Assembly (NCBI GenBank): GCA_015956445.1
Contig: WIUZ02000014.1
Coordinates: 372,001-436,000 of the forward strand
DNA length: 64,000 nt
Reading direction: 5' to 3'
Source of the DNA: Thelephora terrestris
Taxonomy: Eukaryota > Basidiomycota > Agaricomycetes > Thelephorales > Thelephoraceae
Position 1 is the stretch's first letter, and each line of letters opens with the position of its first letter. Position numbers and translations under genes: made by a program. The notes beneath the pieces are model-generated. The model was not told where the DNA came from and did no database searches. It saw nothing but the letters and a program-made list of their open reading frames with translations. This document shows, piece after piece, positions 4,938-43,000 of this stretch.

Positions 4938-7925
4938 ATGTCTTCGACGACTCTCCTTGGTAGGTCGGCTCTCCAGCTCTCGGACTCCAGTCTGACTATG
5001 GCTAGATCCGGACAAGATCTCATGGCAACAGCTCCTGACTGTGGATCCAAACTCGGACCAATTCCTGCAACTCGCGAAATCGCTTCTATCCTCCGATAAG
5101 CATAGGAAATTCAACGTCTCTCGTCTCAGTCGGAAGGAAGCTGCACAACTTGCTGATGTCATCGATACTGGGGTAAGCAAGGATCTCTAAGATACGCTGA
5201 TGCCTAACGCGCCCTGGGCCTAGATCTTGCAGAAGGACACGCTCCCGAAGAACGTCAAGAGCGCGGCCTTTGGTATCCTTCGCAGAATATCTGGGAAGTT
5301 CAGGAAACTGCCCCAATCCTACCTTCTCGAAGACGGTTTATCAAAGGAGGGAGATATCCCGTTCTCCACCCGCGGCTTTGCCACCCTCTGGAAGGGTCAA
5401 TATGACGGCAACTGTGTTGCGATTAAGATGCTGAGGCTCGGTCCGGAAGACGATAAAGTCAAGATTGCGACGGTAGGTTAGACTTGGAGCTCGACCACAA
5501 TAGTTGATCTTCACGGCTACTCTAGAGATTTTGCAAGGAAGTTCTCTTGTGGCCTTACCTCCATCACCCAAACGTACTTCCTGTCCGTGGTTTTTCGATA
5601 TCCACCTGCCCCCTTGCCATAGTCACACCATGGATGGAGAACGGAAATATCCTTGAGTACACTCGGAAACATCCAGCGGCGAATCGGATGAGCCTGGTTA
5701 GTCTCACAGCCCCGCCTTGAGAGGATCGATTGTTCACCTAGTACTTCAGTTGGTCGACGTAGCCAATGGTCTGCGATACTTACACAGGGTGGGTCAAATA
5801 CACGGGAATATTCGAGGGGTAGGTTTTAACACTACCAGGAAGCACCCACGTTACTGAACACGCTCTAGGCTAATGTTTTGATAAGCAGTGACAATCCACC
5901 ACGTGCCTGCCTTGCAGATTTTGGGCTATTTGCCATCATGTTCGATGTCTTCTCCATGACCAAGGTTTCCGTCAATTGGACAGCTCCGGAGATATTCACT
6001 CCCGGAGAACGCGATTTCAAGCCAACGTTTGCAAGTGACATCTATGCTCTCGGAATGCTCATATACGAGGTAATCTACCTCACTTGTTATCCATCTCACC
6101 CTGATCATTTTTTTTCTTTCGGCAGGTACTCACCGGGCGTTCCCCATTTTTCTACAAACGGACGAAGGCGGAATTGGCATATCAAGTCGTCCAGGAGAAT
6201 AAGCGACCGCCTCGCCCTCAAGACGCCGAGCGCTTGGGAATCACAAAACCAGTCTGGGATATGATGGTCACCTGTTGGGACGAGAAAGTTTCCGCGAGAC
6301 ACCAGATCGAGAGCGTGATCAAGTGTTTGGCGGAGGCAGCGAAAGTTTGGGTCGCGGACGTTCCAGCGTTTTACCTGGCGAGCGAAACTGGGATCTCTCA
6401 AGTTATGGGTCTCAAGGGCGAGGAGGCGCAGAGTTTTGTGGACGAATCTTATAAGGTCTCCCCTCTTCGGTCTTCAAGCATTTATTGTTGATGCTGACGC
6501 CCAGGGGGTAGACTTTGGCCTCGACCGGGATCAACTCACCATCTGGGAAGACATACCTTGCCCGGTTGAAAGCATTGTGTGAGGCCTCTGGGACGCTTCC
6601 AACAACTCTCACGCTTTCTGGGATGCTTGGGGACCTCGAAAACAAACCCATGAACTCCAGTGTTTCGGCATACGTTTACAAGGCAACTTACAAAGGGAGC
6701 GAGGTTGCCGTCAAAACTTTGAGGGCAAGCGGATCAAACAGCGTCCACAAGGTAAGAACACAAATGTTTGTATACATTATTGCCTCAATGGGTTTTCCTT
6801 TTCCTAGAAGTTGGTCAAGGAGGTTGTTGGATGGGCACGGCTCAAGCATGAGAACATCCTTCCGTTCATCGGTGTCGCGACGCAGCCAACCGGGTTTTCG
6901 ATCGTCTCCGAATGGATGCCCTATGGCAATATCATGAGTTACGTTGCAAACAACCCCAATCGGAACTTATTCCCACTTGTGAGTAGCGCAGGGCTCGCGG
7001 GAGCGATTTGAGTTATAAAACTGGCTTTTGCAGTTCATTGACGTGGCGGTTGGTTTGCAATACCTGCACCAGAATGATTTCGTTCACGGTAATTTGAAAG
7101 GGGTAACGAAATTCCACCTCTCTAAACACACGAACTTCTGATGAGATTCCTCTGTCTTAGGCGAACATACTCGTCGATTCAAACCTCCGTGCTCGATTGG
7201 CTGATTTTAGTAGAGCAAGAATCATTGACGATCAAGCTTTGGAGAATCAAACGAAGCCCCCGACAGGGCTTGAACGAGATGATAGGATCAGAGAAATCGG
7301 GGACTCCATCCGGTGGAGCGCACCGGAAATTATCGACCCTGACAGGTTTGGGTTCACAAAGAACAACTTCCCGAAACTTCCTTCGAAATCAACCGATATG
7401 TATGCGCTGGCGATGACTATCCTTGAGGTAAGCGGCGACCTCCAACTTTCCCCTAAAAATTCTATAACCTCACCTCTACAGGTGCTCACCGGGGAGCCCC
7501 CATTTGGAAAATCCTCAGACGGAAGCGTTGCAAAGAAAGTGTTGGCTAAGGTCCGACCGGAAAAGCCACACGCTGGGTTTTCGGGTGGGCTATGGGACCT
7601 ACTGCAACTTAGTTGGTCGGAGGAATACGAGCATCTGGAATCAAAACGGCCACCGATCAGTTTGATTCTGACACAACTCCAGAAGGATTCCTCCAGCTGG
7701 TTCTCCGCTCCCCGGTTGGCCTTCCCTTCTATTGACTCGAAACGGTCGTCGTTGTCTTTCAGTGAGTAGATGTTTTCCTGCCGTTTACGATTAGCCCTTA
7801 GTCCCAATTGCCTCGCAGGGAGCAACAAACCCGGCGCATCGGTGGCAGAGGCCACTCCCGAAAATCCAGAACTTCGAGATCTTCTCATGGATTTCAAAAG
7901 TCACTTTCGCACAACAGCTGTTTAG
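4938..7925 (+). CDS. K1: tandem TKL-like protein with two kinase-like domains
   Basis: Thirteen exons (4938-4959, 5006-5172, 5224-5472, 5526-5696, 5750-5818, 5869-6069, 6126-6455, 6512-6751, 6808-6978, 7034-7102, 7161-7427, 7482-7761, 7819-7925) encode 780 residues. Domain 1 (about 105-380) keeps the VAIK lysine and DFG (243-245), but the catalytic loop reads HGN (221-223) where active members of this family have HGD. Domain 2 (about 430-720) keeps VAVK, has HGN again (558-560), and DFS (578-580) instead of DFG; its glycine loop is also lost. Both are therefore probable pseudokinases. They are joined by a linker, TLASTGINSPSGKTYL, also conserved in K2. Each domain carries a 57-codon exon followed by a 23-codon exon. 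The short last exon is less certain: without splicing at 7761 the protein would stop at 7769. Role unknown; signalling scaffold is a guess. Confidence 0.85.
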
Positions 7926-15654: not shown

Positions 15655-17874
15655 TCAGAAGTTCTCTGTAACAAAGTAAATCAGCATCCGGTCGCATAGA
15701 CAACGTTGAGAAAAGAATGTTCCAAGCGGATGATTGCATCTCGATTTCCTCGAGCCTAGACCGGCTCGAGGCGGGAGAGCGAAATAACCAGGGGTGGGAC
15801 GTCCGAAAACAAAACTCACCCTTTCCGAAAAAGAACCTCGTTCCGTTAGGAGTCGAATATTCGTTGCACTTAGTGTGCAACGCCCTCGAAATCGCGGGCG
15901 GGCCACAGAAGAAGACACCAATATCGGAGCCCGAGTGCTTCTCAGTCAAAGATGAGAACACACGGTCCCAGTTAGGTCGACCGAAATGCGTTGGGGCCCT
16001 GAGAGAAGTAATCGCATCCTTTTCAGCCCCGACGTCTTGGACCTAACACGACGGTGAGGATGATCGAACGGTTGGGGAACCTGGGCCCACGTACGATGAT
16101 GTTATTCATTTCGTCGTCCTTGAGTTTAGCAGTGAGATATATGTTGATCTCGATCCTATTCTGCGTGTCTTGTTCTTCGATGGCGTGCAAGAGAGAGTGG
16201 AACCATTCGGCACTACCAAAATCTCGGATGACCCAAGTGAAATAGACCTTGGAAAGACGGGTGGGTTTGGAATCGTTCAAGTTGTTCATTCTATACCAAA
16301 TTGACTTGAGGATCCTAGAAACCCAGTGATCAACACCATGCCTTGTGAAGATCGAAGAGGCTTACGAAGCGAAGGGAGTGACGCCAATACCAGCACCGGC
16401 CAAAAGAACCACCTCGTACTTCAGGAAATCCTCGCTAGCGCTTCCAAAAGGACCATCGACCATGACTCTAGGTAGGACCTTATTGACTGGAGGGATAACC
16501 ACAGCCCCCTCCTTCTCATTCTTGTCCTTGGAATCAAAGTCACATCCACAAGCCTTGGCGAGAGCGCCGGTGAAGTCGCCAACAATCCTGATGTGCACGC
16601 TCAAGTAATCTTCCTCAGGGGCAGAGGTGAGCGTGAAAGGATGCCATTGGAAGTACGAGATTTCGGGGCAAGAGAGGAAAACGTATTGACCAGCTCGGAC
16701 CGTTGTCTTCTCCTTTTTGATCTGAAGCTCCATGACCTTGGACGGGTGCTGAATGACTTTCGAGATATAAGTCCTGTGGCGAGATCGAATCTCCCGGAGA
16801 ATGCGTTCAGAGATCCAGATTAAGCCACCGACGAGCCAATAGCGCTGCGCAGCAATTCAATTGAAATATTCACGAGACAAAAAGAAAAGGATACGGACCC
16901 AAAAGACGCCGATGTTGTTGTACGAGCAGTAAGGTGGCCTGTCGGGCTTGATCATACAGAACATACCGTGGAGTTGCCAGTTGATGAAGAAGACGATGAA
17001 CAAATGGTGCGAGTACCAGAAGCGTTCAAAGTTGGCCCTGCGCCGCTTCTCCATCGCAAACCATACAATAGCCCAAAGGCAGAAGACCATGATCCAACCG
17101 GTCACCCCAGGGCCAGTTGTAAAATTCATCAACAAGAAGTCAATGAACGTGGCCTTGGCCGTTTTTGAGGAGACCATTGAAATTTTGATAAAATTATACG
17201 TGTGAGCGGCGATGTGGACAACAGTCCAAAAGACGATAGTCCAAGCGGCAGCCTTGTGGAAGGTGATATTCTTGTCGAAAGGGATGATGTCGTTCAAGGG
17301 TGTCCGGCGCAACAAGGAGATGAAGTTCCTGCATACAGGGAGGAGGATGAAGGCGACATCGACGTGGAGAATGAGAGCGGCAGTCCGAGCCATAGCTAGT
17401 AGTCAGGTAGGTACGGGAGGAAGCGCAGCCGCAGAAAAGTTGAGTAAAACCTAGCGCCATGTTACGAAGGGAAACCCACGTACTGAACCCGTAACCGAAC
17501 ATAGCCCTCGCGTTGTTATTGTCATCGTTCAACTGGTAGTTGACGAAGCCCAACGAAAAGACGAGGAGGTGGAGGAAAATCCAGACAGAGAAGAACAGAC
17601 GACGGCCGCCATCGTTGATCATCCAGACATTCAGCTTGTCGATGAGCCGTTCTGGCTCGTGAGGTCCCTTGGAAGCCGAACCAATCGTGGCCGTTCGTTG
17701 AAGGGGCTGCAAACGCCTCCTCTCGCTCTTGTTTCGTTGGAGGTGACTGGGTTGAGCAGTTCCGTTGGCATAACTGTCCTTGAGGTCCGGGTGCTGGTCG
17801 AGATTGGAGAGCTGCCCTCGGTCTGAAAAATCGAGGCCGGATGACCGTTTAAACTTGCTAAAATAAGCGGCCAT
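15655..17874 (-). CDS. noxA: NADPH oxidase NoxA/Nox1
   Basis: This membrane flavocytochrome moves electrons from cytosolic NADPH through FAD and two haems to oxygen, making superoxide that controls fungal differentiation. Six exons (17874-17484, 17395-16899, 16844-16366, 16314-16095, 16042-15820, 15665-15655) encode 606 residues. Seen in order: GGRRLFFSVWIFLH (TM1), RTAALILHVDVAF and PVCRNFISLLR, the haem-region histidines in FDKNITFHKAAAW, VVHIAAH and YSHHLFIVFF, the FAD motif HPFTLTSAPEED, the NADPH motif GAGIGVTPFASILKS, FFCGPP, and the NoxA-type end FFFGKENF. The last exon is only 11 bases (ENF plus stop), but it restores the family C-terminus exactly. About 75 polar residues precede TM1, longer than typical NoxA. 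No EF hand is present, so it is not NoxC. Confidence 0.95.
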
Positions 17875-19882: not shown

Positions 19883-20334
19883 CGGAGGAGTTGAGAGGAC
19901 GGAGGAGTATTTCGCGTGGCAACTTCCGGCACGGCTACTAGTAGCACCTGTGTCAACTCCGACCGATAAGCCCGTCTCACAGGCGGCCAAACGGCCCTCC
20001 TTCAATACGCGCAAATCTGGGCTCATTGCGCCCTAGTGAAAGGTTACGGTGGACCACAACCGGGAGAGGTTTTATGTTGAACAGTTCAAACTTCAAATAC
20101 CGCCATTTTTAGAGGAGAGATAAAATCCAAGAAAATATTATTTATGCTACATCGAACGGGTGGACGTGGAAACCGAGACGAGGGATTACAATGGAAATGT
20201 CCCAATCTATACAAAGTATTGGTTCGTGCAGAGGAAAATAGGCTACCACCCAGTCAAGGGTGTGGGTCCGGTGTGTAAGACCAATAATTAATGTGCTGTA
20301 GAAGTAAAAGAAATCTGTCTCTGTAACCCGAACG
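19883..20334. other. intergenic: RSM25 promoter and MCT-B 3' flank
   Basis: These 452 bases contain no recognised gene. The strand opposite RSM25 is open in places but reads only as its shadow. Confidence 0.5.
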
Positions 20335-22271
20335 TCAGAACTTCCCGCGTAAAGTACCAAGCATCAGGTATTTCGTGACGTAGAGAAGTATGACAGCCAC
20401 AAAAATACACGATCCTGCAAGAAAGTAGAATAAGATTTAGTCGTGCATAAAGGATAGAGAGAGATTTTGAGGTAATACCTGCGTAGTAACTGACAGTTTT
20501 AAACCCGTCGGGGCTCTGGATAATGAAGCCAGATATCGGGGGCCCCGCGACAGCTCCGAGTGCAATAGCCGACCCAGCGATCCCCGTCCTCCTCCCAGCA
20601 TCGTGCATGTCGCCCATTGCCACCAGAGGCACCGGAAGCAACGTGACATACGCTCCAGAACAGAACCCATAGATAACCGCGACAGCGATGAGTGATCCTC
20701 TCGTCGTGGCAAGCGGCCAAAAGTATGTCATTATCGCACACACAAGAGTCATCGGGGCAGACACGTTAATCGCCCCGAGTTTATCGCCAAGAAAACCGGA
20801 TGTGATCCTTCCAAAGCCTGAAGAGGCGTTTGCAATAGAGACCAGATAGAAGGAGAATCCGGGAGTGATCCCAAGCGCGATAGCGCTCAGTTCGATATAA
20901 GTCAACACTTTCAAGGAGTTCACATTAGTGGGCGACTGGGATAGGAGAGGGGGAACCTACGTGTATAGAGTCCTAAGAAGGTGATCGCACCGGCCAAGAC
21001 AAATACATTGAACGCAGGTTTCCGAAAATCATGCCAAGCGAAGAAAGGGCCAGGGTTTTTTGGAGGATCAAGCCTTCGCCTTAGAGTCTGAAGGTTGGCG
21101 TTCGTAAGCGGATGCCAGCTGTGTCGAAACAAAGGTCGTTACCAAGTTTGCAATCGCCAGCATGCAGAATGTGATCAGGGCAATAACCCGTATTGTCCAT
21201 TTGAACCTGATGCAATCCGTTTGTCATGTTCCGTGTACCCGCGATATTATTACATACCCAACGATATTGACCAAATGGCTGGAGGCAATCGGGATGACAG
21301 TTCCGCCAATCGCCGATCCAGTAGCGCTGATACCAAACGCCAGTGATCTCCGTTTCTTAAACCAATGCGAGATGATGATAGGAATCGGTCCGAAGATCAT
21401 CCCACATGAAATTCCAGTGAGGAAACCCTGGCAAAGGAGAAGTTGCCAAAACTCCTTGCACTCAGCAATAGCTGCGGTCGCTACTACTAAAATCACACTA
21501 AAATCAGGTTTGTCAGTCGACGATGATGACTTGTGGTAAAATTCTGCGCTGCTCACCTGGAAATAAACAAAGTTCTCTTGTAGTAGCCGAGGTCGCAAAG
21601 CCGGCCGGCAAGAAGCCCAGGAAGAAAAATCAAGGCATACTGCGGTGGATCAGCCAGGTCTCATGAGAAGGGGAGGTAGGGTTCTTTGTACCTGAACGGA
21701 CCCGATCCATGCACTGGCGTGAACGTCAGTCCCGAGATCGACAACCCGTAGCGTGGACCTTTACACTCACATCGTCGAGGTTTTGGTATCCGATAATAGA
21801 ACTCGCCCGTAGTAAGTCTGGAATGTCTGCCTTAATCATTAACCACTGCACAAGGTGCGGAGCAGTCAGGAACGCACGCACCCCCCAGGTATTGACAACA
21901 CCAAATCTACGAATATCGATGACGTGAGTCAGTTATTCAACGCAAACTTGTGGAATACGACCGACGTTGCAAAGATAGCGCACGTAGCCTACATTGGTGG
22001 ACTTGATCAGTAAATTTCGAAAGACAGAATTGATAGATGGACCCACTCCGACTACCACAGACCAAGCAGCTAACCCACCGTCGGGATAATCGTCCACATG
22101 GGATGTGAGGACAATTGGAATGACCTTGACCTCTGCATCCTCGCTCTTCGCGTTCCCTACGAGGATATCCACCGTCGAGTTTCCGAAGGCCAGCACCCGC
22201 TTTTCAGATACTGGATCACCCATTTCTACGTTGTTCAATACCTGCGGAGAAGTTGGCTTGAGGGAAGACAT
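20335..22271 (-). CDS. MCT-B: monocarboxylate-type MFS transporter, paralogue of MCT-A
   Basis: Eleven exons (22271-22047, 21988-21966, 21906-21882, 21826-21771, 21713-21692, 21639-21557, 21497-21258, 21206-21143, 21087-20961, 20907-20479, 20414-20335) encode 457 residues. Every exon has the same length as its counterpart in MCT-A (225, 23, 25, 56, 22, 83, 240, 64, 127, 429, 80). Signatures are YPDGGLAAW at TM1, SHWFKKRRSLAFG, PPKNPGPFF, AGRRTGIAGS and the end LMLGTLRGKF. Substrate unknown. It is the immediate neighbour of the PKS-NRPS gene, on the same strand and about 1.3 kb beyond its stop, so it could export or import a product or precursor of that pathway; this rests only on position. 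Confidence 0.93.
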
Positions 22272-23548
22272 CGGAGAGCGGAGGGCCCAGGAATGCCCGA
22301 ACGTCCCCTAATTATAGAAAAATCTCTATGGTACGGGTTTGACGGTTTTATTTCGGAGAGTGACGAGAGTTCTTCAGGGTCTCGGCATCACGCAGGGCGG
22401 GTATCATTACTAGCACGCCAACATATCTTGATCGTGCTCAAGGGGTGATGGAATTCATGTTACAACATGCTCGAAATGCTTCGTATGACCCGCGTGCGCT
22501 GTATTTTGATCAGCATATTCATAGATTTCCCGATGTCGGAACACATTACCAGCATATGCATGTGGGTACCGGTGGCAGTGTTTGGGCCATGAGGCTTGGC
22601 TTCGACGGCTCCTAATTCAGCGGAAGAATACTTCGTTCCCCGCAGCGTTTTCGAGGACTGCCCGGACCGGAACTACTCATTCTCGGATGGCAGAAGTTAT
22701 TTGCTCGACTAAACCGTTCTTGTAGTCTGCGCCGCTCCCGTGTTCCAAAGTTTCTGGATACCCGGGATCAAATAGGGGCGAGGAGCTGGTCGTGACTGCC
22801 CCGGTGGCAATCGGGACTGTTGTGGAGCGGGCAGAATTGCAGTCGCCAAGTCCGAAAGACGGGTGTTTGAGACTATCGAAGCGTCGGTCGCTAATGCCCA
22901 TTTGCGGCTCCCTCAGGCCCGATGTCAAATTCGGAGAGCGGTGTAACGGGCGACAACTTAAAGAACCCGACCGCGGCGTTGGTACGCCTCTGACAAAGAT
23001 CAAGAACGTGGCTCGTCGAATGAATCGTGTGCCAATGGCGGAAAATCCCCGTTGGCCAAGCGTCTTTCTTATCCGCCACCCGGCGAATTGTAAGCTTCAT
23101 TGAAGACTCGGCCATAGCCTAGTAACCAGGGTCTACGCAGCCGAAGAAGTCGGCGTTCGCAGGCAGCTTTTGACGCCGTCCCGGAGCTTTCGAAATTGTA
23201 CAAGAGTTTTACCGGGGTGATGAGAGGAGGCAACAAAGTCGAGGTTCGAGAAATACATGTGGTACTTGAGCTTCTCGCGATCCCGCATCTTTCGGGATTA
23301 CTCGAGCTCCACTAGATCACTCTGAGTTTCTTGCGACGATTTATATATTGAAAGGAAAGAGAACGAAACATGATGATAGACTACATTATACAACCTCTTA
23401 CATATGTTATCCCATTGTTTATTACTTTACAGTGTTCGCATCGATGTGCGCTTGGCGGCGTGGGTATTTTGCGTGATTGATTCGATAGGTATCCGGTAGA
23501 CTGTGTACGACTCATGGAATGAAAACTCAGACGATTAAAGCGACCCGT
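22272..23548. other. intergenic: MCT-B promoter and PKS-NRPS 3' flank
   Basis: In 1.28 kb no gene is recognisable. Open frames here lack splice-consistent extension. TA-rich stretches near 23340-23420 may belong to the megasynthase terminator. Confidence 0.55.
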
Positions 23549-26500
23549 TTACTGTGATGACTATAAAAACGTTGTTAGCACAAGCAAGTCGGTCCAGTAG
23601 GGGCAGAAACATACCTGTGCGGTGGGGAACTCGGCAAAGATACCCTTAAGGACTTGAGCGAGACCTTTCACGTGTGCAGGCGTGAACATGGTATCGTGGC
23701 GGCCAGGGGAAATCTTCATCGTCAAGTCCGAGATCCTGTGTTCCCAACCGTTGAGATCGTCAAGGCCAGTGTCGAAGTCGCTCGCGTGACCGCTTCGGTA
23801 CCACACCCGGTCCTTAGGAACGACGAGGGTAGTTGGTCCATCGTAGTACGGCGGATCCAGTTCCCACATGGCATCCAAGTTCTTCCTGATCTCCGCCGAC
23901 AGCTTGGTCTTCCACCTTTCGCCAATTTCAGGGAAGTTCTGTGAAATGCGGTCGATGGCGCGGGCGGTCCAATCCGATGACTTGAGACTCTGGCGTTCAC
24001 GAGCGGGGATGAAGATCGTATCGAAGATGATGAGGTGAGTGATGACCTCGCCGGCTTTCTTCAACTTGTCGGCAATCACTAGAGCCACGAGACCACCCAT
24101 AGAGTAACCAGCGATAACGTATGGCCCGTGAGGCTGGACACTGCGGATGAGAGCAATGTAGTGATCGGCCATTTCCTCTATGGTGGTGAAGCCGTCGACG
24201 GAGCCGAAATGCTTGTCACCGATGGCCCACATCTCATTGGGCATGTAGGCACCAAGACGCATGAAGGGAGTAGCCATACCGGTAATGTCGTGAACGATGA
24301 ACATGCGAGGATGAGTACCCTTCTTCTTGACGGGGAGGAACTCGATCAAGAAGTCGTCCTCGGAGTCCTCAGCGGCCATGATCTGCCTCTGGTCCTGACC
24401 CATAGCATCAATGATCACGTTACTCAACTCGCGGATAGTCGGCCTGTGCATCGGCGTTAGCAAGGACGATGAGAGGTATCTTGGGGAAACAACATACCTG
24501 AGATAAATGTTGTTCAAACCGATATTGAGCTTGAACGACTCTCCAACGGAAACAGCAGCCTGGACGGCGAGGAGAGAATTCAAACCGACGGAGAAGAGAT
24601 CGTGAGTAACACCGAGTTGACTGGGATCGGTTTTCAAAACGTCGGAGAAGATCTTGTGGAGAGCGACCTCAACATCGGACTGAGGAAGACCGACATCCGG
24701 ATTGGTGTCGTGGAACGGAGCCAAGTCCAACTCCATGAGTGCGCGACGGTTGACCTTTCCGCTGGTCGACGTGGGTAAGGTGGGGAGATGGGCAATGAGC
24801 GACGGATACATGAACCTCGGCAGCCGCTCTGAGATGTACATCTTGAGAGTCTCTTTCTCGTCGGCAATGTGATCCTCGGCAACGGAAGACTTGAACTCCA
24901 CGAATGCGACCACAGCGGGGGCGTCATGGAAGTTTCGAATGAGTACGGCGGCACGTTGGACGGAATGATACTTGTTGACGACATCCTCGATCTCACCGAG
25001 CTCGATGCGTTGTCCACGAAGCTTGATCTGGCTGTCCTTTCGACCGCAGTAAACGATGTTTCCATCCGCACGGAACATGGCAACATCCCCAGTGCGGTAG
25101 AGACGTTCGCCAGACACGAAGGGATTGGGGACGAACGCCTTCTCCGTCTGTTCAGGCTGATTGAGGTAGCCACGAGCGAGTTGAACACCACCAATAAAAA
25201 GCTCTCCTTCGACGCCAATGGGGGTAGGTCGCATGTTCTCATCGAGGATGTAGAGGCGGTTGTTAGGGAGAGGGCGTCCGATCACGCCAGTCAAGGAAGC
25301 GTCCGTGACATGAGCGTGGATACAGTCGACGGATGCCTCTGTAGGACCGTACATGTTCATAAACTTGACGCGCTTGGACCAGTCTTCAATTAGCTTCTTC
25401 CCGAGGGCTTCACCGGCAACGACGACCGTCTCCAAAGTAGGGTAATGCTCGACCGGGACAACAGCGAGAATGCTGGGTGTGCAGTGAACAACGTTTATGC
25501 GGAGTTTTTGGACGGCTCTTCCTATGTCACCGAGCACGAGTTCTTTGCGCCCAGTAACGAGGGTAGCGCCGCAGGATAGAGTACCGAAAACGTCGACGAC
25601 GAAGGGATCGAAGGTGTAAGCGAGGGAGGAGAGAACACGTGCACCGCGGTGGTATCCATAAGGTTGGGAGTTTTGCACCAAGTTGGAGATCGAACGATGT
25701 TCGATCATGACTCCCTTGGGCTTGCCGGTACTTCCACTCGTGAACCTGTGCGAAACATTTAGAGGTCATTCAAAACAGTAAGAAAGAGAACTAACATGAC
25801 GTAAGCGAGATTGGCGGATGTATGCCCGGGGACTTCGAAGTTGCTGTCATCAAGCTTCTGCAGCCTCTTCTCGAATGTAGCGTCATCGATGTACGCGACC
25901 TGCGAAAGGGGTTATTCACGAAAGGGATGTTATTTGAAAGCGTCACTCACGATAACTTTCGACGCAAGCGCCTTGTCGAAGTCCCGACGTTTTGAATAAG
26001 TCGTGAGTAAGATCTTCGCGTTGGTATCGACGATCAGCATTTCCTTTCGAAGGGTGGGGTCATCTGGATCAAGTGGCATGAATGCACCACCGGCCTTGAG
26101 AATGGCGAGGATGGCGAGGACCTGCGGGATACCGCGCTCGAAGCAAATGGCAACAACGCTGTCTGGACCGACACCTTGTTGGCTCAGCAAACGCGCGAGA
26201 CGGTTGGCCTTGGAATTGAGCTGAGCGTAGGTGAGGTATTGATCCTCATACTCGATGGCGACCGTGGTGGGAGTCTGCTTGGCCTGAGCTTCGACAAGCT
26301 GGTGTAATTTACGCTCGACGGGGTTGATGGGACCAGAAGTAGATAATTCCTTCACGAGCCGGGCGTGCTCGTGATCGCTGACGGCGGAAACATCGCCGAT
26401 CTTGACGTAGGGGTCCCGTCCGAGAGTGTCGACCAAGTTGCAGTATGCGTCCAAGAACTGACGAGCGGTCTCCTCGGTGTACAAGTAGTTGTCAAAGCGC

Positions 26501-29500
26501 AAGATGACCTCGCCAGTCTTGTAGTGGACTGTAAGCAAAAACTCGTATTTCTCCTCACCGTTTGGCAGCGAGATCACAGCGGTGGTGGTGATATCGGAGG
26601 TGTCGAGGCGGCCGGTAATGCTCATATTAAGACCACCAGGAGCGAACAAGTGCTTGAAGTAGGAACGGTCTTGAGAAGATGTCTTTGTCTGAGACACAAT
26701 GTCTTCGAGAGTAACGTCGTCATTGGAGAGGTCAGCGACCAGATCTAAGCGGAACTTCTCCAGGTATTCAGCGAAGGTCGTCTCGTCCTCGAGGGTAGTG
26801 CGGATCGGGAGCATGTTGGCGAAGAACCCAACAACCTCCTGGAGTTGAGCCATAGAGCGCTGAGTGACAGCAGTCCCGACGACAAACGAGTTCTGAGACG
26901 AGTACTTGTAGAGGAGCAGGTTGTACGCAGCGAAGAAGGCGGCGAAGGAGGTGGCAGAAGTCGTGGCAACGTAGTCGTTGTACCTCTTGAGAGCGGACAA
27001 TCCGATCCGGCCCTCGATCTGGGTGATGGGGCTCTGCTCAACCTCGGAAGGCTTGGCGAGAGTCAAGATCAGCGGCTGGACTCCATCCAATTTCTTGGTC
27101 CAGTATTTGATCTGCTCGTCACGAAGCTCGGCGCGGCGATCGGCAGTGCGGATAAGCCAGTCGCTGAAATCGGAATAGTGGAGCTGAACCGGCGGAAGGC
27201 TGTCGATACCGTGGATATAGAGCTGGAAGAGGTCGTAGAAGAAGATGCCCAGCGAGGTCTCGTCGGTCATGATATGGTGGACAGTGATGTTGAATGCGTA
27301 AGCGCCACCGCCGAGATTGAACATGGCGGAGGAAATGAGCGGGAGCTTATCGAGACTGAAGTTGGGGTTCATGTTATTCGCCAGAGACATGTCATATGCT
27401 TTCTTGTAAGCATCAGGCTCGTTGCTGAAGTCGATGACCGAAGCGTTGTGGACGTTGGCCGAGGGGTGGATGGTTTGCATGAGCTTGCCCTTTCTCTCAT
27501 CCCAGTGGAAAGTCGTTCTGAAGGAACCGTGCCTGTTAACGGTCTCCTCAAACGCCTTGGTCATTCTATCGAGATCGATGGGGACCTTGGATTCCACGGT
27601 GATGAAGTAGCCCTCGTGGGTATCCCATTGAGTTGCACCGAAGCGCTTCATCGCTTGATCGACAACGGCGACGTTCCTCCTCCTGGAGTTGTCGTATTCG
27701 AGCTGAAGAAAATGAACGATGAATAAAATTTCATGAAGTGAAGCGCTTGACAACACACTTGAGCCAACCAAATGCGGTACTGGTGGGGGGAGGCGTCGGT
27801 GGTATAGGGCTCGTCGTAGACCAAACGGTCGTTCAAAATGGGGACGAGGGGTTGGCCGTACTTGGAAGAACCATCGTCGAGAGCGGTAGAGGAGCCTGAC
27901 TCCGATTCGGTTGCCCGAGATTTGGCAATAAGCTCGTTCAGGACGCCAACCGACATCGATCCCAACAACTCGATCTGAGACACGCTGATGCCGAATGCGC
28001 CCTTCAGCTGTGAACTGAATCGAGTGGCTGTGTGCGGAACCGCGTTAGTTGTGCAAAAGAAAGAAACAGAGGGTTTGGGCGTACCGGCAAGAGAATCCAG
28101 ACCGTAAGACGTGATCAGAGCATTATCCGATATCTGTTCAACACCGAGTCCGAGAAGGTTGGAAAGCAAGCTAGCCGGTGATTCTCCGCCGTCTTCCTTT
28201 GAAGCGCCATCGACGGCCAATAGCCTGGGAGGAAGCAAATGCCCGAAGAGGAGAGGATCGCAAGTTTCGAAGACCTCGCCGCAGGCCTTGTGGTTGAGGA
28301 GCGGCAAGTAGTGAGGGATCTTGCGGACGATAGAGTCTCCTATGAACTCGCAGACTTGAGGGGTGGTCATTCCGAGCTTGCTGAGCTTGGCGGTGTTGGC
28401 ACCACCTTTTGTGGACTGAACGAGTCGCTTGAAGATACCAGAATCCGTGATTGGTGGGAAGGACATGGAGATGGTGTTTGGCAAAGTCTCGGCGATCTTG
28501 TCAAGATACAACTGGGCGACGAGATAAGGGGCCTGACCGGCGTTACCGAAGACAGTGCCGATGGTGGAGAACAGCAAATTGAAGTCGATCTTGCTCAGGT
28601 CAACGAGTTCCAGGATGACGTTGAGAGCGGCGACCTTGGATTGGTATACATCGTCGAAGTGCTGCTGAGTGAGATTCGCGAACGAAGAGTCCCTCAAGAC
28701 CACAGTCATCAACATGATGCCACCGAGGGGTCCAACGGCTTCGGCAGTCTGGATGAGCTTAGCCATGTCCGCCTTGCTCAAAGCATCGCAGGAGATAGCT
28801 TGGGCATCACCACCCTTGTTGTTGATATCTCGAAGGTACAATTTGTCGACGGGAGAGAGAGCCTTACGACCACGACGAGAGGTGAGGTAGATGTGACGGG
28901 CGCCGTGATTGAACATCCAGACTGTGATTCCGATACCAAATTCACTGCAACCACCAATCAAGAGGTACGTCTTGCGAGGATCGAACAGCTGGGCAGCTGG
29001 GTCGACTCGAACGTTCTCCGGACGAGTGGTCTTGACGACGAGAACCTGAGAAGAAGTAATGTTCTCGACTGGGCGGACTAGATCGGAGAATGAGATGGTG
29101 ACTGGAGAAAGCTTGAACGGATTTTCCACGTGTGCATTGAGGACGGCGTCGAGGAAAGCGGTCAGCTTGGCAGGGTGCTTCTTCGCCAAGGTGGCAATGT
29201 CGACAATCCTAGCGGCAGGGGCATCTGCAGGGAGCTTGACAGGATCGCTGGTCTGCTTGTTGTGAATATAGAGACCGAAGGAGGAGATGATATCGACAAC
29301 GACGGCGAGATCGACGCGACCGGTGGAGTTGAATATGAGGTCGAATCCCTCGACACCGGAAGCCTCGAGCCATTCCTTGGCAGCCGCAAGAGCGGTAGAA
29401 ACGGAGGCGTTCACAGCGATCGACTTGACGTCAATGCCGAACTCAGTAGATAAGATCTGAATCTCAGATTTCGACGCGACTGTGAAGAACGCTGGCGCCC

Positions 29501-32500
29501 GCAAGTTCTGGACGATTTGAATCGCGGCGCGGCCGACACCTGCAATTATGGGTCAACACAAAAATTCAGAGAACAAAGAGGGGAGGCGTACGAGATAGGG
29601 CGTCGTGGACAAGAACGATGGAGTCCTTCTCGATCCTACCCACTTCGACCAATCCAACCCAGGCGGGGAGGATAGTATCGGGCAATGAAACCGCATCTGT
29701 TACTGAGACAGTCTCGGGAAGAGAGGTAATGGCCCTCCTATCGACGACGACGGCGTCGACGAGCTTCTGGTGCGAGTAACCGAGTATTTTCTTTCCATCA
29801 ACGCTTCCGACGAAGGCGGTAAGAGGAGCGTCGTCCTCGAGGTCTGTAATGCCGAACGCTTCGACGGCAACTTCGACCTCGTTTGGTCCGGGGAGAGGAG
29901 GGTAGGCAGCAGCTACGGATCGGTGGCCATGGGAATTTTTGGAGTACCCGAAGTGATGGATCTCGACGTTCCTAGTGCTCGGAGATCCCTGAACAGCGCG
30001 ACGAACCAATACCTCGCCAGCCGCGGTAACCTTCAGATGATCTTCCAAAATCTTGGGATTCTGGCGAATGGTATGAACCCAACCCTCGCGCTCATCAACG
30101 GTCAGGGAACTGTCCTCGAAAAGGACAGAGTGAACGGTGAACTGAGTCTCTTCAGAGATGAGACCGGCAACAACACCCAAAGCGCCGATGCCCCCGGCAT
30201 CATCATTTCCCATGACCCACAGCTCTCCATCAGCAGACATTTGTTTGACCTTCTCGACTAGCATTCCTTCATTTCCATGGAGGAAGTGGTGGAAAACGAC
30301 TTTGGTGGTGAGTTCTTCGGGAAGGACGGAAGGCGGGGTGAAGTTCCTAGCAAGGATAACGCTCTGGCCAGCGGGGAGGTCCTGAATGACGACATCACAG
30401 CCCAAATCTGCCTGGAGTTTTGAAACAAATCCCTGCGAGCTAAGTGAAACGAATCCTTCTTCCTTCGAGGGGCTTCCAGCTGCGAGGCGTGTCAACAAAC
30501 GGTCAGGGCGCTCCGGAGAAAGATACTTACAGTGAAGGAGGAAGATGACAGCGCCATGTGGAGCGAGGAGCCTGGGGAACAAGTCAAAGTTCGTTGGCGT
30601 CTTGGAGATGTCGAGGTTCACGAGGATCACATCGACACTGGAAGGGGTAAGCATCAATTACAAACCACAGATGCCAAATACGCACGTCGCATCACGAATA
30701 GAAACGCTTTGATCGGCAAAGGTGGCGGTATCGACGATAGTTGAGCGGCCATGGGGATATTTGAGCGCGTTAACCTTCGCATCAGCAGCCTCTGCATCAA
30801 CACCAGCAGCGAAATAGTCGACGGCAAACCGGTAGGTAGCGAGAAGGCTCGACAACTTAGCATCGACGGCTTGGGCAATGGAACTAGAGGAGTCAAGGTC
30901 CAGAACTCGAGACACGAATCGATTGGTTTTGGTGCGGGCATTGGTGAGGAGAGTCTCGAGGACCTCGGCGAGGTAGCTGTGGCCGCCGTGGCCGCCAACC
31001 GGAGGGAAGGTGTAGTCGGGGGTGATGAAAGCTTTGGGTTGCCAGGTGGTAACGATCCGCTGCTGCATGGAATAGTCCGTAATTGGGACCGGCTCGGGTT
31101 CGGGAGCAAGGGCGATCTCAAATTCGTCGATCGTGAAGAAAACTCGTCCGGTAGAGTCCGCTATGACATAGTCAGAGACAAAAGGTCCCTTGGCACCCCA
31201 AGCCTTGGGCTTGTACAAGACATAGATTCCCTTCTTGAGGTGCTCCTCCATCGAAGCAGAGTCTGGAGAATCCCAGCGGGTGAGCTTCTTCATCGAGACT
31301 GGAAGGAAGGTTCCGTTGAAGTCAAAAGTCTTATTGGTCATGTTCATGAACGAGCAGAGACCGATTTGGGTGATGGAATCGAGGATGCCGGGGTGGATAC
31401 AGTACCCCTTTCCGTAAACGTCAGGCGTGCCTTCGGGGATCTCGAATCGAGCGATGTAAGCCTTTCCTGTCCAGCACCCCGGGTACGGGACAGCGTGAAG
31501 CTCCTTGGTGTAGTTCCGGAAGTGGTCCTGATAGTTGTAGCTGGACGGAAGATTCTCGTAAAACTCGTCGCCGGTCATACTGACAAGAGAAGAGGCCAAC
31601 AGGGATTGAACATCGAGAGTGGGAAGGTTCTCTGGGTCGTAATCGGGGTTCTCGCGCTTGAAGTAACCGCTGGCATAGACGGTCTCGAGAACCGGCCTTC
31701 CATCCACGTACTTGCTGTCAGTAGAACCACGGAACTCCCAGTGATCACCGTTAATGACGACTCCAGCGTGACCCGGAACAGTGTCGTGTCCGTTCAGAAC
31801 GAAAGGCTTGAGGACCTTCATGTTCTCCACGACGAAAGCGCCGTTCTCAAGAATGGCTTCGGTGTAGCTTTAAATATCTTTAGAAGGAAATTCACGAAAC
31901 AAAGGAAAATGCAATCGTACCCAGCACCAGGGTACAACACAGCGCCCATGACAACATGTCCGGTGAGGTCAGAATGAGTGTCGACGTTGATACGGAAATG
32001 TGCCTGGGCCAAAGGACGAGGAGTAGCGCGGAGCCTGAGAGACCTCGTAGCACCATCCTCAACCCAACAGGAGGACTTCGAGTAGGGGTAAGAAGGAAGT
32101 GGGACCTTGACAAAGTCGACGATTCCGTCAGAGCGGCAGGCAAGCTTGTTGGCATCGATGTAAGAGTATCCGGTCATCAACAAGTTACCGATACCCTCAA
32201 GGAACTGGAAGTGCTCGCCGGTGTTCTGGGCAGGCACCTTGGGGTTGGGCCGACGAATGAGGGAGACGGGGTTTCCGCCGATTTCCTCGATATAGGACTT
32301 GAGAACAGGGTGAGGAGCGATTTCCAGGAAAGAAACGTTGTCGGCGCCGAGTTCCTGAACGATCTTGTTGAGAGCGGTACCGAAAAGGACTGGTTGTCGG
32401 ATATTGTCCCAGCAGTACTGAACATCCATATCGCGCTCGAGCCACTTTCCGTCGACGGTGGACATGACCTTGGCAACAGGCTCCCGGGTTGCGGTCAGGG

Positions 32501-34989
32501 CACCCTTTACGAAGTCCTTAAAAACTTTCTCTTGAGCTTCCATGAGAGGGGTGTGGAAAGCGCACGTAACACGAAGCTTAGCGGCGAAGATCTTGTCGGC
32601 GGGATCAGCGGCAACCTCAACCATGAGGTCAATGAGTTCAATTTGGCCGGCGACGGTGACAGCCCTGGGAGAGTTGATACCGGCGATCCAAAGGCCACTG
32701 TCGACGCCAGCACGGGCTAAGACCTTTTTGATCATGAGCTTGGCCTTCTGGACACCAACACCGAGAGCGACCATCCCCCCATTACCCTCAGCCTGGGTCA
32801 TGGCAGCAGCACGACCGACGGCGATACCAACAGCAGTCTCGCGATCGTAGTGGCCAGAAGCGTAACCCATTGCGATTTCACCGATGGAGTGACCGATAAC
32901 GCAGTCGTACTTGATTCCAATAGACTTGAGGAGATCCGTGAGAGCGATTTGAATGAACACGAGGGAAATGACGACATCAGCGACGGGCCATACACCGTTG
33001 GCAGCGAGAGTGGCTTGCTTTCCGGGTATGAAGAGACCAGAACGCTCGACGAAGGAAGGCTGGCCATATTTGTTCACCAGGATCTCGTCGTTTGCCCTGA
33101 TAGCATCGAGGAAGGCGGGGTAAGCCTCGGACAACTGACGACCCATGAAAACGTGTTGAGGGCCCTGTCCAGCGAAGACCAAGCACAACTTGGGCTTAGC
33201 GGAAACGAGGGTAGTCTTGGACCACTTGAGATTGGGAGTGAGAGCAGGACCAACAGCAAAGGAGCGGTATGGCGAGGCACGAGCTTGACGAGTAAGTTCG
33301 CGAGAGAGTGAACGCAGAGCTCTTGGCTCTGCGTGTTTCTCGAAGCGGGAGGTGAGGGTCGTTTGCCAGCGACCAAGAGATCCCTCGGTGAGAGTACCAA
33401 TAGTGAATAGATAGAGGGGAGTGGTGGCGGTCTTGGGCTCACGGATGATGACAGCCGCGGCTTGAACTTGCTCAACAGTCTCGAAGGATTCAACGACGAC
33501 ATGCGCGTTGGCACCACCAACACCGTAGGTCGAGACGGAGGCGACAAATTTGCCATCGGAAGCGGCCATATTGGGGGTGATTTTCTCGAGCTCGGTCTGA
33601 ACCTTCATCATGCCACCGACGAAGTCGATCTTCGGGTTAGGGTTGTTGAAGCGGATGTTGGGTATGATTTCCTTGTTGTGGAGCATAAGTGAGACTTTGA
33701 TCAAACTGGCCATGAAAGAGCACCCTTCAGCATGGCCGATGTTGGCCTTGACGGACCCGACCCTGAGCGTCTTCTTGGGATCACGGCCCTTGGAGAAGAC
33801 TTTTCCAGCACCGTTCACCTCGATCGGATCGCCAACGAGAGTGCCGGTGGCGTGGAGCTCGACGTAAAATGCATCGGCGGGGTTGCGCTTCGCACGGGCG
33901 TAGGCCCCGCGGACTGTCATGCCTTGAGCCTCGCCCTCTGGCATGGTCAATGATTTTCCCTTTCCATTTGCATTGATAGCGCTGCCGGTGATGACCGAAT
34001 AGATGTGGTCGCCATCATTTAGAGCAAGGTCCAGGCGTTTAATAAGAACGGCGGCAAATCCTTCTGCACGTGCATAACCGTCGGCAGCCGCATCGAAAGA
34101 TTTTGAGGAGCCGGTGGGAGACAAAACACCAAGCTTGGAGAAGGAGAGCGTGTGGATGGGATTAACCATAGTACTGGCACCGAGGACGAGGGCTTGATCG
34201 ATTTCGCCGAGTCGGATAGCAGAAGCTGCCATGTGCATGGCATACCCGGACGCCGAACAAGCTGGGGCAAAAGTAGGATCAGAAACGTATCAGAAACAGA
34301 TCGAAAGCGAGATTACTCACCAGTATCAAGAACAAAAGAAGGACCCTTCAAATCAAACGTGAAAGAGATTCGGTTGGCGCGGATGGCGATGCACTTTCCG
34401 GCGCCATTGAAATTATCGATTTCGTACCGGTCATCTGCAAGTTCATTCGTGGAGGTTAAAAGTTGGCCGAGGTAAACCCCGGTGTTAGAACCTCGGTAAT
34501 CGACTCCGGAATCGATCAGAGCCTAAGAATTGGAGGTCATCGATACGGCGGCCTGGGATTGGAGGAAGAAGTGCATACCTGGTGAGCGGCCTCGAGTGTC
34601 AATCGTAGTGATGGGTCGAGGTATTGCGCTTCTTTCTGGCTGATACCGAACTCCAGAGGATCGAAAAGGTCTATATCTGAGACGAAACCACCCATGGTGG
34701 ACGCGAGTTTTCCGGGTTCGCTTTTTGTCCCTTGGATCTCAGTGTCAATACATGACCTAAGCTGAAGAGACTAGGCCCGTACCGTGCCAATTGGCGTGGT
34801 CCCAACGATCAGGGGGAGGCTGAACCATACCATCACCCTGAGAAACGATGATTAGAAAAGTACAGATTGCAAGAAACCGGGAAAACGAACCTTGTTTCTG
34901 AGGAACTCATAATACAAGTCCTTGCTGTCAGAATTGCCAGGGAATTTACACCCGATACCGATGAGGGCGAGAGGGATTTCAGCAGACAT
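23549..34989 (-). CDS. hybrid reducing PKS-NRPS with terminal thioesterase
   Basis: Fifteen exons, joined in one frame, encode about 3,563 residues beginning MSAEIPLALIGIGCKFPG. KS: Cys171 (DTACSAS), His306 (ELHATGT), His346 (KANIGHAEG). AT: Ser628 (GHSIG). DH: His938 (HVVMGAVLYP) and Asp1113 (GILDSITQ). Residues 1215-1380 resemble a C-methyltransferase without its SAM loop. ER about 1480-1830, with SRVG where GGVG is usual. KR about 1865-2040: Lys1977, Ser2000 and Tyr2014 present, cofactor loop GGCSEFG. ACP: Ser2158 (GLDSL). Condensation: HHIMTDE from 2391. Adenylation: FTSGSTGKPKG from 2869 and Lys3198 (SGKVNRRAL). PCP: Ser3258. Thioesterase: Ser3398 (GYSMGG), Asp3425, His3533 (GRHD). The enzyme should build a reduced acyl chain, amidate one amino acid and release it by hydrolysis or cyclisation. 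The last exon (SSQ, stop) is short and uncertain. Product unknown. Confidence 0.95.
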
Positions 34990-40054: not shown

Positions 40055-43000
40055 TCATCCCTTCGTGAAGATGGACTTTGCCCTGGGCCTCGCGAATAGG
40101 CCATGGACCTCGTCATCGCGCTCGGGAGCTAGCTTGTCCGAAAGCTTAGGCACCGTTTGGCTTCGGTTCAAGAACTTCTCCATGAATGCTTTTTTGAGCT
40201 TGTCCCATGCCCTGCCTACAGGGCCCTTCTTCCTTATCCGTGGGGGCGCAGGAGGAGCCCGGGGAAGGGGAGGCGGCGGCGGCGGTGGAGGTGGAGGCGG
40301 AGGTGGAGGAATGGAAATATGCAGGGATGGACGAGCTTGCGATGGCTCTGGGACCTGGCTCGGCCTCTCTTCGTTCTCAAAAATCGGCGAAACGATCGGT
40401 TCATTTATCACATCCCAAGCAGAGACTTCTCGAACACTTGAAGGATCGTCGGTTGGTACTGGGCCGATGAGGTTATCAATGTTTTTAAGGAGGATCTCGA
40501 CATCGACTGTTTGACCACGAGGCGGGGCTTGTCCAGTATTATCTTCTGGATTGGGGTGAGAGCACATTCTTTCGCCAGACTCAAGATAGAAACGAACCAG
40601 TACGACCTAGAAGTTGGTCCGCATATCCGAGGGAATCGGTGGAACTCTCCGCTGCGATACCAGGTAAGTTACAGGAGCAAGCCCTGGAGGGACGGCGGAC
40701 ATACCACTGGGGTTTTGTTTCATTGGACTTGAAAAAACCCTCTGGAGAGACCTGCTTAACTGGCTCCAATTGTCTGCCTCATCCTGCAGCAGCTTGAGAA
40801 TGTCGGTGATACTGGGGCGTACGGATTGTGATTCGGGGGCTTCGAACTCCTCCAGCCACGTTTGGGTCAACAGCGTCCACAACGCATCCGAGAACCCCAC
40901 AGAGGGTCTTTCAGGGCGGACCTTGCTCAGGACCTTCTGAATGACTGCAGCGTCCGGGTTGGTATGCTCGAATGGTTTCCGGCCTGAGATCACCTGCGGA
41001 GTGAATAAAATTGAGGACACGTGAAAAAGAAGTGGGTGCGATGAGTTTGTAAGCACCTCGAGAATCGTCATTCCAAGGGCATATATGTCCGTGCTCTTCG
41101 AGGGTAGCTTTCTGCGGGCGTGGCGTTTGCCGTACCCATACATTTCCGGGCTTAGAATCTCTGGAGCCATCCACCTAATCGTGCCTCCCGTCTTATTGCC
41201 GCTACCTCCGTCAGCGGAAGTCGACTCCTCTATAATTGCAGCGAGCCCGAAGTCCGCTAAGCAAGCGCGACGCTCAGAATTAATGAGGATATTCGCCTGG
41301 ATATCACCGTTGTTAACACAACCTGGCATCGCGTAACAATGAAGACAGCTGTCTCACCCCTTTAAGATCACCATGGACGAATTCATGTTGGTGGAGGTAT
41401 TGTAGACCGCTGGTCACGTCCACGAGCTACGAGTCGAGTCAGCAACACCCAGGAATCCACGTAGGATACCCACGAGATTGAACGGATTCTGATCTGGATT
41501 GGCCTTGATAAAACTCATGATGTTTCCATTCTCCATCCATGCCGAGACCATGGAAAAGGGCGGAGGTTCAGAGGTGACCCCGACGAATGGTAGAATATTT
41601 TCATGCCGAAGCCACTTCCATCCCACGACTTCCTTCGCAAAGCGCTGGAGAGGCAACGTAAGTAGATTCATGATTTGTCCAGGGATTAAACCCCAGACCT
41701 TGTGCACGTTCTCAAGATCTTCCAGGGAGGTGGTCTTGAGAGCCTTCGCTACTACTAGCTGACCCTTGTACGTCGCTCTGTATACATCCGCGAATCCGCC
41801 GTTCGCGAATGGCCGTGTTTCAATGTTATCGAATCCATCTGTAAGCATAAACGAGGCCGGCAAAACACCGGACGCGCCGCAGAGCTTCTGGAGATACTTC
41901 AAGTATGTCTTCCCCGAGTGCCCACTGATGCCAATACTGTCGAGAGTCTATAGTGTAGCGTCAGGATCATAACTCCAACAGAAGGGTGAGGTCCAATCTC
42001 GGCAGCGCACCGTGTCAAGCTGGTTTGCAAAATCCTTGGCCTGGTCCTCCTTCAAATTCAGCACTTGGTCTACCCCAGCCCTACTCGCAAGCATAAAAGC
42101 AGGAACGTCGACCACCCAAGTTTCCGCCGCTTGCTTCAAACAAACGGCAACGAAATCGACTGACGGTCGCGCAGATGGGTCTTTGTCCCAACAATTTTCC
42201 AAGACTTCCCAGACCTCGTCGGTAAATCCCAATTTCTCTGAATCTCTAGGCCTCCGCGGCCGCTCGTCTTCGAGGACGACCTTACAAGCCAGCTCTGTCT
42301 TTGCTCTTCTTGCGAATGGAGACGTTCCCGTGAGCACCTAACTATGATGAGATCCCTTTGCACCGTATGGGAGTGCCAACTAACCTCGTAGATTACCATA
42401 GCAAGCGCATAGATGTCACTCGGGATGGAGGGTTGATAAGTAGTATCATCAGGAATCAACAGTTCCGGTGCGGTCCAGTTAATAGACGCCTTGGTAAATG
42501 AGAAAGGATCAAATATGATGGTGTTCAAGCCGAAATCCGCGAGGAGGGCTTGTGGAGGCCGACTGTCGCTGATCAAAATGTTGGACTAGAGGGATGTTCA
42601 CTGGGCCGCCTTTGACAATCATAACATCAATACATACCCCGCGAATGTTCCCATGCACTAAATTCATCCGGTGAAGGAACTTCAGACCGCTTGCCACATC
42701 GATCAACTGCGGAGCAATGATCGTCGGATTCCGTGCTTATCCATTGGTCGACGAAGCTCACCAGTCGAAGTCGGTTGGCGTCCGGATACTTTCTCGTGTA
42801 GATAAGGACATTGCCGTTCTCCATCCATGGAGACACCATGCAAAACTGGTTCGGGCTCATTGAAGCTCCGTAAAATGGGAGAATGTTGGGATGGTTTAAA
42901 CGTTTCCACAGCAACACTTCTTTACAGAATCTCTACAAGGGATATTTAGTCCCCCGAGATCCCTTGGAATCTGCCAACAAATGAAATCGTCACCTTCGTC

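Follow-up and report, generated by a model that had tools for sequence, protein, structure and literature searches.

Results

The DNA analysed here, referred to as the window, is a stretch of 64,000 nucleotides from the basidiomycete Thelephora terrestris (assembly GCA_015956445.1, contig WIUZ02000014.1, positions 372,001 to 436,000), and its minus strand carries a gene for a hybrid of a polyketide synthase and a nonribosomal peptide synthetase (PKS-NRPS) that ends in a thioesterase (TE). Feature positions are listed in Table 1. The splice model contains 14 GT-AG introns of 48 to 63 nt each and 0 internal stops over 3,561 aa, and the domains of the single polypeptide are ordered KS-AT-DH-(MT gap)-(ER)-KR-ACP-C-A-PCP-TE. 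Strand, coordinates and domain order are those given by an earlier, sequence-only reading of this DNA, which had put the length at about 3,563 residues. The last intron was placed at 23614-23552 and leaves a final exon made of the stop codon alone; if this intron were unspliced, about 17 more residues would follow to a stop before 23561, so that the 3' end is not certain.

The Pfam scan covered six open stretches of the gene, from 34289 down to 23564, and exons 1 to 4 were read from their translations. Eleven families were matched with E values from 6e-57 to 4e-6, namely ketoacyl-synt, Ketoacyl-synt_C, KAsynt_C_assoc, Acyl_transf_1, PS-DH and KR in the PKS half, and Condensation, AMP-binding, AMP-binding_C, PP-binding and Thioesterase in the NRPS half. 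As in fungal PKS-NRPS hybrids, KS-AT-DH and KR-ACP are followed by C-A-PCP in one polypeptide. A terminal reductase (R) or Dieckmann cyclase (DKC) off-loading domain, which defines the usual fungal hybrid, was not found and a TE is there instead, and the gene is therefore a variant of the usual family. As judged from its sequence, it is one TE-terminated gene, real and well supported.

Table 1. Positions of the PKS-NRPS gene, its exons and domains, and the adjoining transporter gene in the window.
Feature	Position	Strand	Remarks
PKS-NRPS gene	23549..34989	minus	ATG at 34989, stop at 23549; 15 exons, 3,561 aa (splice model)
Exons 1-8, high to low	34989-34891, 34837-34783, 34730-34579, 34522-34321, 34261-31921, 31867-30686, 30637-30531, 30479-29592	minus	
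Exons 9-15, high to low	29539-28085, 28027-27759, 27702-25951, 25899-25796, 25745-24498, 24443-23615, 23551-23549	minus	
KS	33450..34977 (ends approximate)	minus	Cys171, His306, His346; Pfam from 34289 down
AT	32220..33197	minus	GHSIGE, Ser628; Pfam
DH	31072..32027	minus	His938 (HVVMGAVLYP), Asp1113 (HPGILDSITQ); Pfam PS-DH; conserved in paralogue
Region where C-methyltransferase would sit	30298..31044	minus	No detectable MT homology; dN/dS 0.11
ER-like domain	29031..29910	minus	quinone_pig3 8e-7; alignment to FAS ER; dN/dS 0.145
KR	28461..28964	minus	Pfam; Ser2000 and Tyr2014 kept; FAS alignment; paralogue
ACP	27909..28193	minus	GLDSL at residues 2155-2159, Ser2158; interrupted by intron 28084-28028
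Condensation domain (C)	26398..27660	minus	HHIMTDE; Pfam 6e-57
Adenylation domain (A)	24737..26310	minus	Pfam, TIGR01733; Asp at alpha-amino-acid position (FDPF)
PCP	24434..24694	minus	VGLNSL, Ser3259; Pfam 2e-7
Terminal thioesterase (TE)	23633..24346	minus	Ser3399 (GYSMGG), Asp3426, His3534 (GRHD); Pfam PF00975 2.1e-21
Major-facilitator transporter gene	20291..22307 (extent approximate)	minus	PF07690 at 20291-20956 and 21227-21649; directly downstream

The host genome (40.6 Mb, 60 contigs) was searched, and a full-length paralogue was found by protein-guided spliced alignment at C5:368916-380231, 85.5% identical, 3,562 aa long and without stops. The C5 copy shares 11 of the 14 window introns, with residue and phase both matching. 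Introns at residues 1343 and 2250 occur only in the window copy and one at residue 2018 only in C5; the 14th window intron precedes the stop, where C5 shows GT..AG and then TAA, beyond the reach of the alignment. The 11 shared introns have a mean identity of 57%, compared with 55% for shuffled introns, while the coding DNA is 77.6% identical. The ratio of nonsynonymous to synonymous substitution rates (dN/dS) between the two copies, calculated by the Nei-Gojobori method, was 0.053 overall (dN 0.090, dS 1.69), 0.040 in the TE and 0.02-0.15 in every stretch with a computable dS; these ratios are rough because dS is near saturation, and the saturated dS of the ACP gave no ratio. The ER-like domain (the highest value) and the MT-position region were the least constrained (Table 1). 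The pattern says that both full-length copies are kept by purifying selection. The single spliced frame proposed by the sequence-only reading is thus borne out, with no stop in the window copy and the same frame and introns supported by the paralogue. A separate PKS and NRPS, a frameshift or a pseudogene is strongly argued against by this 85.5%-identical copy, with its shared introns and purifying selection. The C5 copy was also considered as an allele and rejected, given the dS of 1.69 and a blastn comparison of the 64-kb window with 80 kb of C5 that matched only inside the gene (the complete copy, another fragment of the 3' end and a small part of the A domain).

In the PKS half, the DH motifs around His938 and Asp1113 are taken here to have their usual roles. 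No methyltransferase was found in the region where one would sit, either by Pfam or in the PDB at E<=10, whereas Pfam detected the MT of another PKS in the same genome (C1:2012001-2022000, the C1 PKS). The region had been described as a "cMT remnant", a label that came from position alone. The ER that had been claimed is present at its position as an ER-like domain, but its NADPH motif is degraded and its recognition is weak (quinone_pig3 at 8e-7, a weak alignment to the ER of fatty acid synthase (FAS) and no Pfam match). Its nucleotide-binding stretch reads HDALSRVGRAAIQ, compared with HSGSGGVGQAAI in the FAS ER, and the change of GGVG to SRVG is common to the window copy and the C5 paralogue. 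Since these glycines are lost, the domain is probably inactive. The KR has Gln2018 at Tyr+4, and its glycine-rich loop reads GGCSEFG against GGLGGFG in FAS, with two glycines replaced; the roles of Ser2000, Tyr2014 and the Tyr+4 position are presumed to be those usual for KRs. The ACP between KR and C gave no Pfam match, its exon being split, and was identified from the GLDSL motif only; the intron that splits it is shared with the paralogue.

In the NRPS half, the A domain has its Asp of FDPF at the presumed alpha-amino-acid position. The putative binding pocket, read by hand through PheA numbering, is D-P-V-H-V-A-M-V-D-K, which is not known to correspond to any described pocket, and no substrate was predicted. 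The last domain is a thioesterase and not of reductase type, as the sequence-only reading had it, with a match to the PF00975 profile and a Ser-Asp-His triad in a GxSxG context; that reading had numbered the triad one residue lower. The triad is kept in the C5 paralogue and in the C5 3' fragment. Pfam found no reductase PF07993 in the last exons, whereas the same library placed PF07993 at the C1 PKS terminus. The TE matched 31 PDB sequences at E<=0.01, all of them NRPS, PKS or FAS chains or excised parts, with NocB (3e-18) and then EntF (8e-13) as the best; most of the matched stretches are presumably TE domains. An alpha/beta-hydrolase fold is predicted. The C1 PKS is itself ordered KS-AT-DH-MT-KR-ACP and then a thioester-reductase-type domain, so that the genome has both reductase- and thioesterase-type ends.

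The lineage of the PKS half was examined with a quick tree of 75 AT rows, namely the window, C5, C1 and 72 of 80 bacterial loci; 8 bacterial loci and a further PKS of the genome (C2) had no long enough, stop-free AT match. The ATs of the window and C5 grouped with the C1 PKS AT, apart from the 72 bacterial ATs, with a Shimodaira-Hasegawa-like approximate likelihood ratio test (SH-aLRT) value of 99, in a tree that holds no ascomycete rows and in which the C1 branch is long. Because of this grouping, the PKS half looks fungal. A search of genome contigs with a KS alignment gave at least 587 relatives, the best 80 of which were 40-46% identical. The KS-AT half scored higher against bacterial than against fungal PDB chains; a bacterial origin of the PKS half on these scores was dropped, since the control C1 and C2 PKSs show the same bias.

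The gene finder recovered the PKS-NRPS gene and, elsewhere in the window, only three short models, and the neighbours were therefore read from open frames; outside the gene there are 104 stop-to-stop frames of >=110 aa, and the scan covered 47 of them. In the adjoining transporter gene, the open reading frame at 21936-22307 had no match of its own. This transporter is possibly an exporter of the product, judging from its position only, and blastn gave no DNA match to it in the 80 kb compared around the C5 copy. The other neighbours recognised were a second transporter, an NADPH-oxidase-like gene (Ferric_reduct, FAD_binding_8; 16365-17402, minus), MRP-S25, Isy1, a G-patch gene, a mitochondrial carrier, a tRNA-ribosyltransferase and kinase-like genes. 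The latter form a tandem set (PF00069/PF07714) at 40610-42585 on the minus strand, and the plus strand has similar pieces at 5869-6261 and 7161-7766. In the window, 0 Rfam matches at the gathering threshold, 0 tRNAs and two short rows of tandem repeats were found.

The PKS-NRPS gene is, from the matches obtained, copied in bits across the genome. Incomplete copies of its 3' half (A-PCP-TE), interrupted by frame changes or by a stop, lie at C5:384461-385903, C5:301715-302417 and C5:343893-344119, in a stretch with repeats of about 2.6-3.7 kb, one of them with a DUF6535 gene. DUF6535 is a basidiomycete family, and its presence on C5, the short introns and the genome size are in line with a basidiomycete source. 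Two ACP-C-A fragments at C45:2085663-2087087(-) and C45:2128068-2129492(+) are inverted, about 41 kb apart and identical over the 3,741 bases compared; at the DNA level they match the window copy with 91.6-93.2% identity, more than the full-length C5 copy does, and self-complementary DNA of about 840 bases (87%) adjoins the C45 ACP-C-A fragment. Short parts of the A domain, which span about 51 query residues and have 88-92% identity to the window, lie at C59:770651-770794 and C2:461459-461602.

Discussion

The window gene probably encodes a single-chain iterative PKS-NRPS that would release a polyketide joined to one amino acid by means of its TE. This reading follows from catalytic residues that are mostly intact in KS, AT, DH, KR and ACP, together with C-A-PCP and a serine TE in one conserved frame. 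The PKS half would work iteratively. As the MT is undetectable and the ER is without its NADPH-binding glycines, this half would make a chain without branches, polyene-like or a beta-keto polyene, unless enoyl reduction is supplied by a separate enzyme. The chain would be coupled by the C domain to a single PCP-bound amino acid, and the resulting acyl-aminoacyl chain would pass to Ser3399 of the TE. Release could then occur by hydrolysis to an N-acyl amino acid, by formation of a macrolactone or lactam, or by a Dieckmann reaction that gives a tetramate, as in bacterial TE-type hybrids, and the neighbouring transporter may export the product. Several points weigh against this reading or limit its support. 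The tree program flags joins such as that of the long C1 branch as possibly false. The ER-like domain is still somewhat constrained and could possibly keep a structural or residual role. The KR is likely to be active, but its Gln at Tyr+4 and two replaced loop glycines leave some doubt. Among the scanned frames there was no recognisable P450, methyltransferase or other tailoring gene of the usual kinds, which is uncommon for a fungal cluster, although one could be hidden in short exons or unscanned frames. Finally, the C and A domains were compared with fungal hybrids through PsoA alone, by PDB bits.

As to the mode of release, an acid or a lactone or lactam is the outcome we moderately favour, a tetramate is a distinctly weaker candidate, and any other mode is improbable. 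For a tetramate, the TE would stand in place of the reductase or Dieckmann domain and yet carry out the Dieckmann closure. Against this, though weakly since the comparison contained no tetramate-system TE, the TE is only 24-33% identical to plasmid-borne TEs (best 8 of 443 records), and its best PDB relatives, NocB and EntF, have hydrolytic or macrocyclising TEs. On the other side, bacterial iterative PKS-NRPSs of near-identical order end in a TE and give tetramates (PMC4979870, PMC8399814). IkaA releases its tetramate by a TE, and a module-embedded TE is one of the four kinds of tetramate-forming unit (PMC4979870), a C-terminal TE being listed with R and free cyclases. SkoA is ordered KS-AT-DH-KR-ACP-C-A-PCP-TE (PMC8399814). 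Because IkaA and SkoA end in a TE and make tetramates, the TE does not exclude them, and the "product class distinct from the tetramates" that the sequence-only reading derived from the TE alone does not follow. These bacterial polycyclic tetramate macrolactam synthases resemble the window gene in having a single-chain iterative PKS, one NRPS module and a TE. They differ in attaching two polyketide chains to ornithine, whereas the window gene has the extra ER-like domain and an AT that groups with a fungal PKS. SkoA also lies beside FAD oxidoreductases, an alcohol dehydrogenase, a desaturase and a P450; no companion oxidoreductases of this kind were recognised in the frames scanned near the window gene, where short exons could be missed.

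It is unlikely that the NRPS half (C-A-PCP-TE) is of bacterial origin and was fused to a fungal PKS. The scores in the PDB point that way, as the A-PCP exon gave one-stretch bits of 229 with GrsA and 212 with SrfA-C, and 208.7 with the LgrA module, all compared with 137 for the fungal SidN and 128 for PsoA, and C-A gave 223 with LgrA (two stretches) against 101 with PsoA (one stretch). However, PDB NRPSs are mostly bacterial and the KS-AT of the C1 and C2 PKSs shows the same bias, so that these bits do not discriminate. Myxobacterial and planctomycete A domains share 39-40% identity with that of the window gene, and TE release is mainly bacterial (PMC2823734), but no close donor was found. In plasmid tblastn searches with C-A, A-PCP and TE, every best place was <60% identical (900, 2,814 and 443 records, respectively), with C-A at 28-32% (best 15 of the 900 records) and A-PCP at 38-39% (best 8 of the 2,814). 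A genome-contig search with the C-A exon gave 20 stretches that matched the pattern and 0 relatives, and the NRPS half contains introns shared with the paralogue.

That the gene is decaying or silent and yields no product is very unlikely. In favour of this, the ER and MT have degenerated or disappeared, the genome contains several broken pieces of the gene and the scanned neighbours include no recognised tailoring genes; against this stand two full-length copies without stops and the low dN/dS of each stretch with a computable dS. That the PKS and NRPS are two genes wrongly joined at the ACP-C linker is hardly credible, as the window copy has a linker intron (27758-27703) but the paralogue has no intron there and reads through in one frame.

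Among known fungal systems, the ascomycete hybrids (equisetin, tenellin, cytochalasin and PsoA types) resemble the window gene in being a single-chain iterative PKS with one C-A-T, and PsoA is a distant PDB match. An inactive ER is common in ascomycete PKS-NRPS hybrids. Phomasetin- and fumosorinone-type products arise by R/DKC release. The "-TE" label has also been given to Cordyceps hybrids assigned to phomasetin and fumosorinone, and such labels in genome papers need caution. Ascomycete hybrids off-load by R or DKC where the window gene has a TE (PMC7421883). According to an earlier paper, fungal hybrids almost always terminate in R, and fungal NRPSs seldom use a TE for release (PMC2823734), which agrees with the rarity that the sequence-only reading had ascribed to this layout. 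A survey of 1,462 fungi gave 1,419 hybrids, 5 of them in Basidiomycota, with a final set of 884 from ascomycete classes (PMC7421883), and Taiwanofungus is reported with one hybrid in each of four genomes. A TE-terminated fungal hybrid is not new in print, although the matching labels are unverified. For PpPKS5 of the basidiomycete Phlebopus portentosus, one section of the paper prints KS-AT-DH-ER-KR-ACP-C-A-P-TE, the same layout as that of the window gene including the terminal TE, and another section prints KS-AT-DH-ER-KR-ACP-C (PMC12028679). Hybrids of the Ophiocordyceps unilateralis complex, labelled KS-AT-DH-MT-KR-ACP-C-A-P-Te in the genomes of four named species (PMC11057048), likewise carry a TE label at the end but are ascomycete, with an MT listed and no ER. 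The basidiomycete highly reducing PKS LpaA, which makes the polyene laetiporic acid, has KS, AT, DH, MT, ER0, KR, ACP and TE, and thus an inactive ER and a TE; unlike the window gene, it has no NRPS module and its C-MT is needed for the product (PMC9893682).

A bolder and less likely reading is that basidiomycetes have their own lineage of iterative PKS-NRPSs with TE release, to which the window gene would belong and which would be independent of the ascomycete R/DKC hybrids, convergent in layout with the bacterial tetramate synthases and the source of its own polyene-aminoacyl product class, with an NRPS half that is perhaps bacterial. PKS-NRPS hybrids of basidiomycetes are rare in the survey cited above, and no paper with a biochemical characterisation of one was noticed among those listed in searches of open-licence literature, most of which were not read. 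The TE end makes the release chemistry directly testable, as hydrolysis, macrocyclisation or tetramate closure by the TE of a fungal hybrid, and with two full-length copies that have diverged within a single genome, product programming can be compared.

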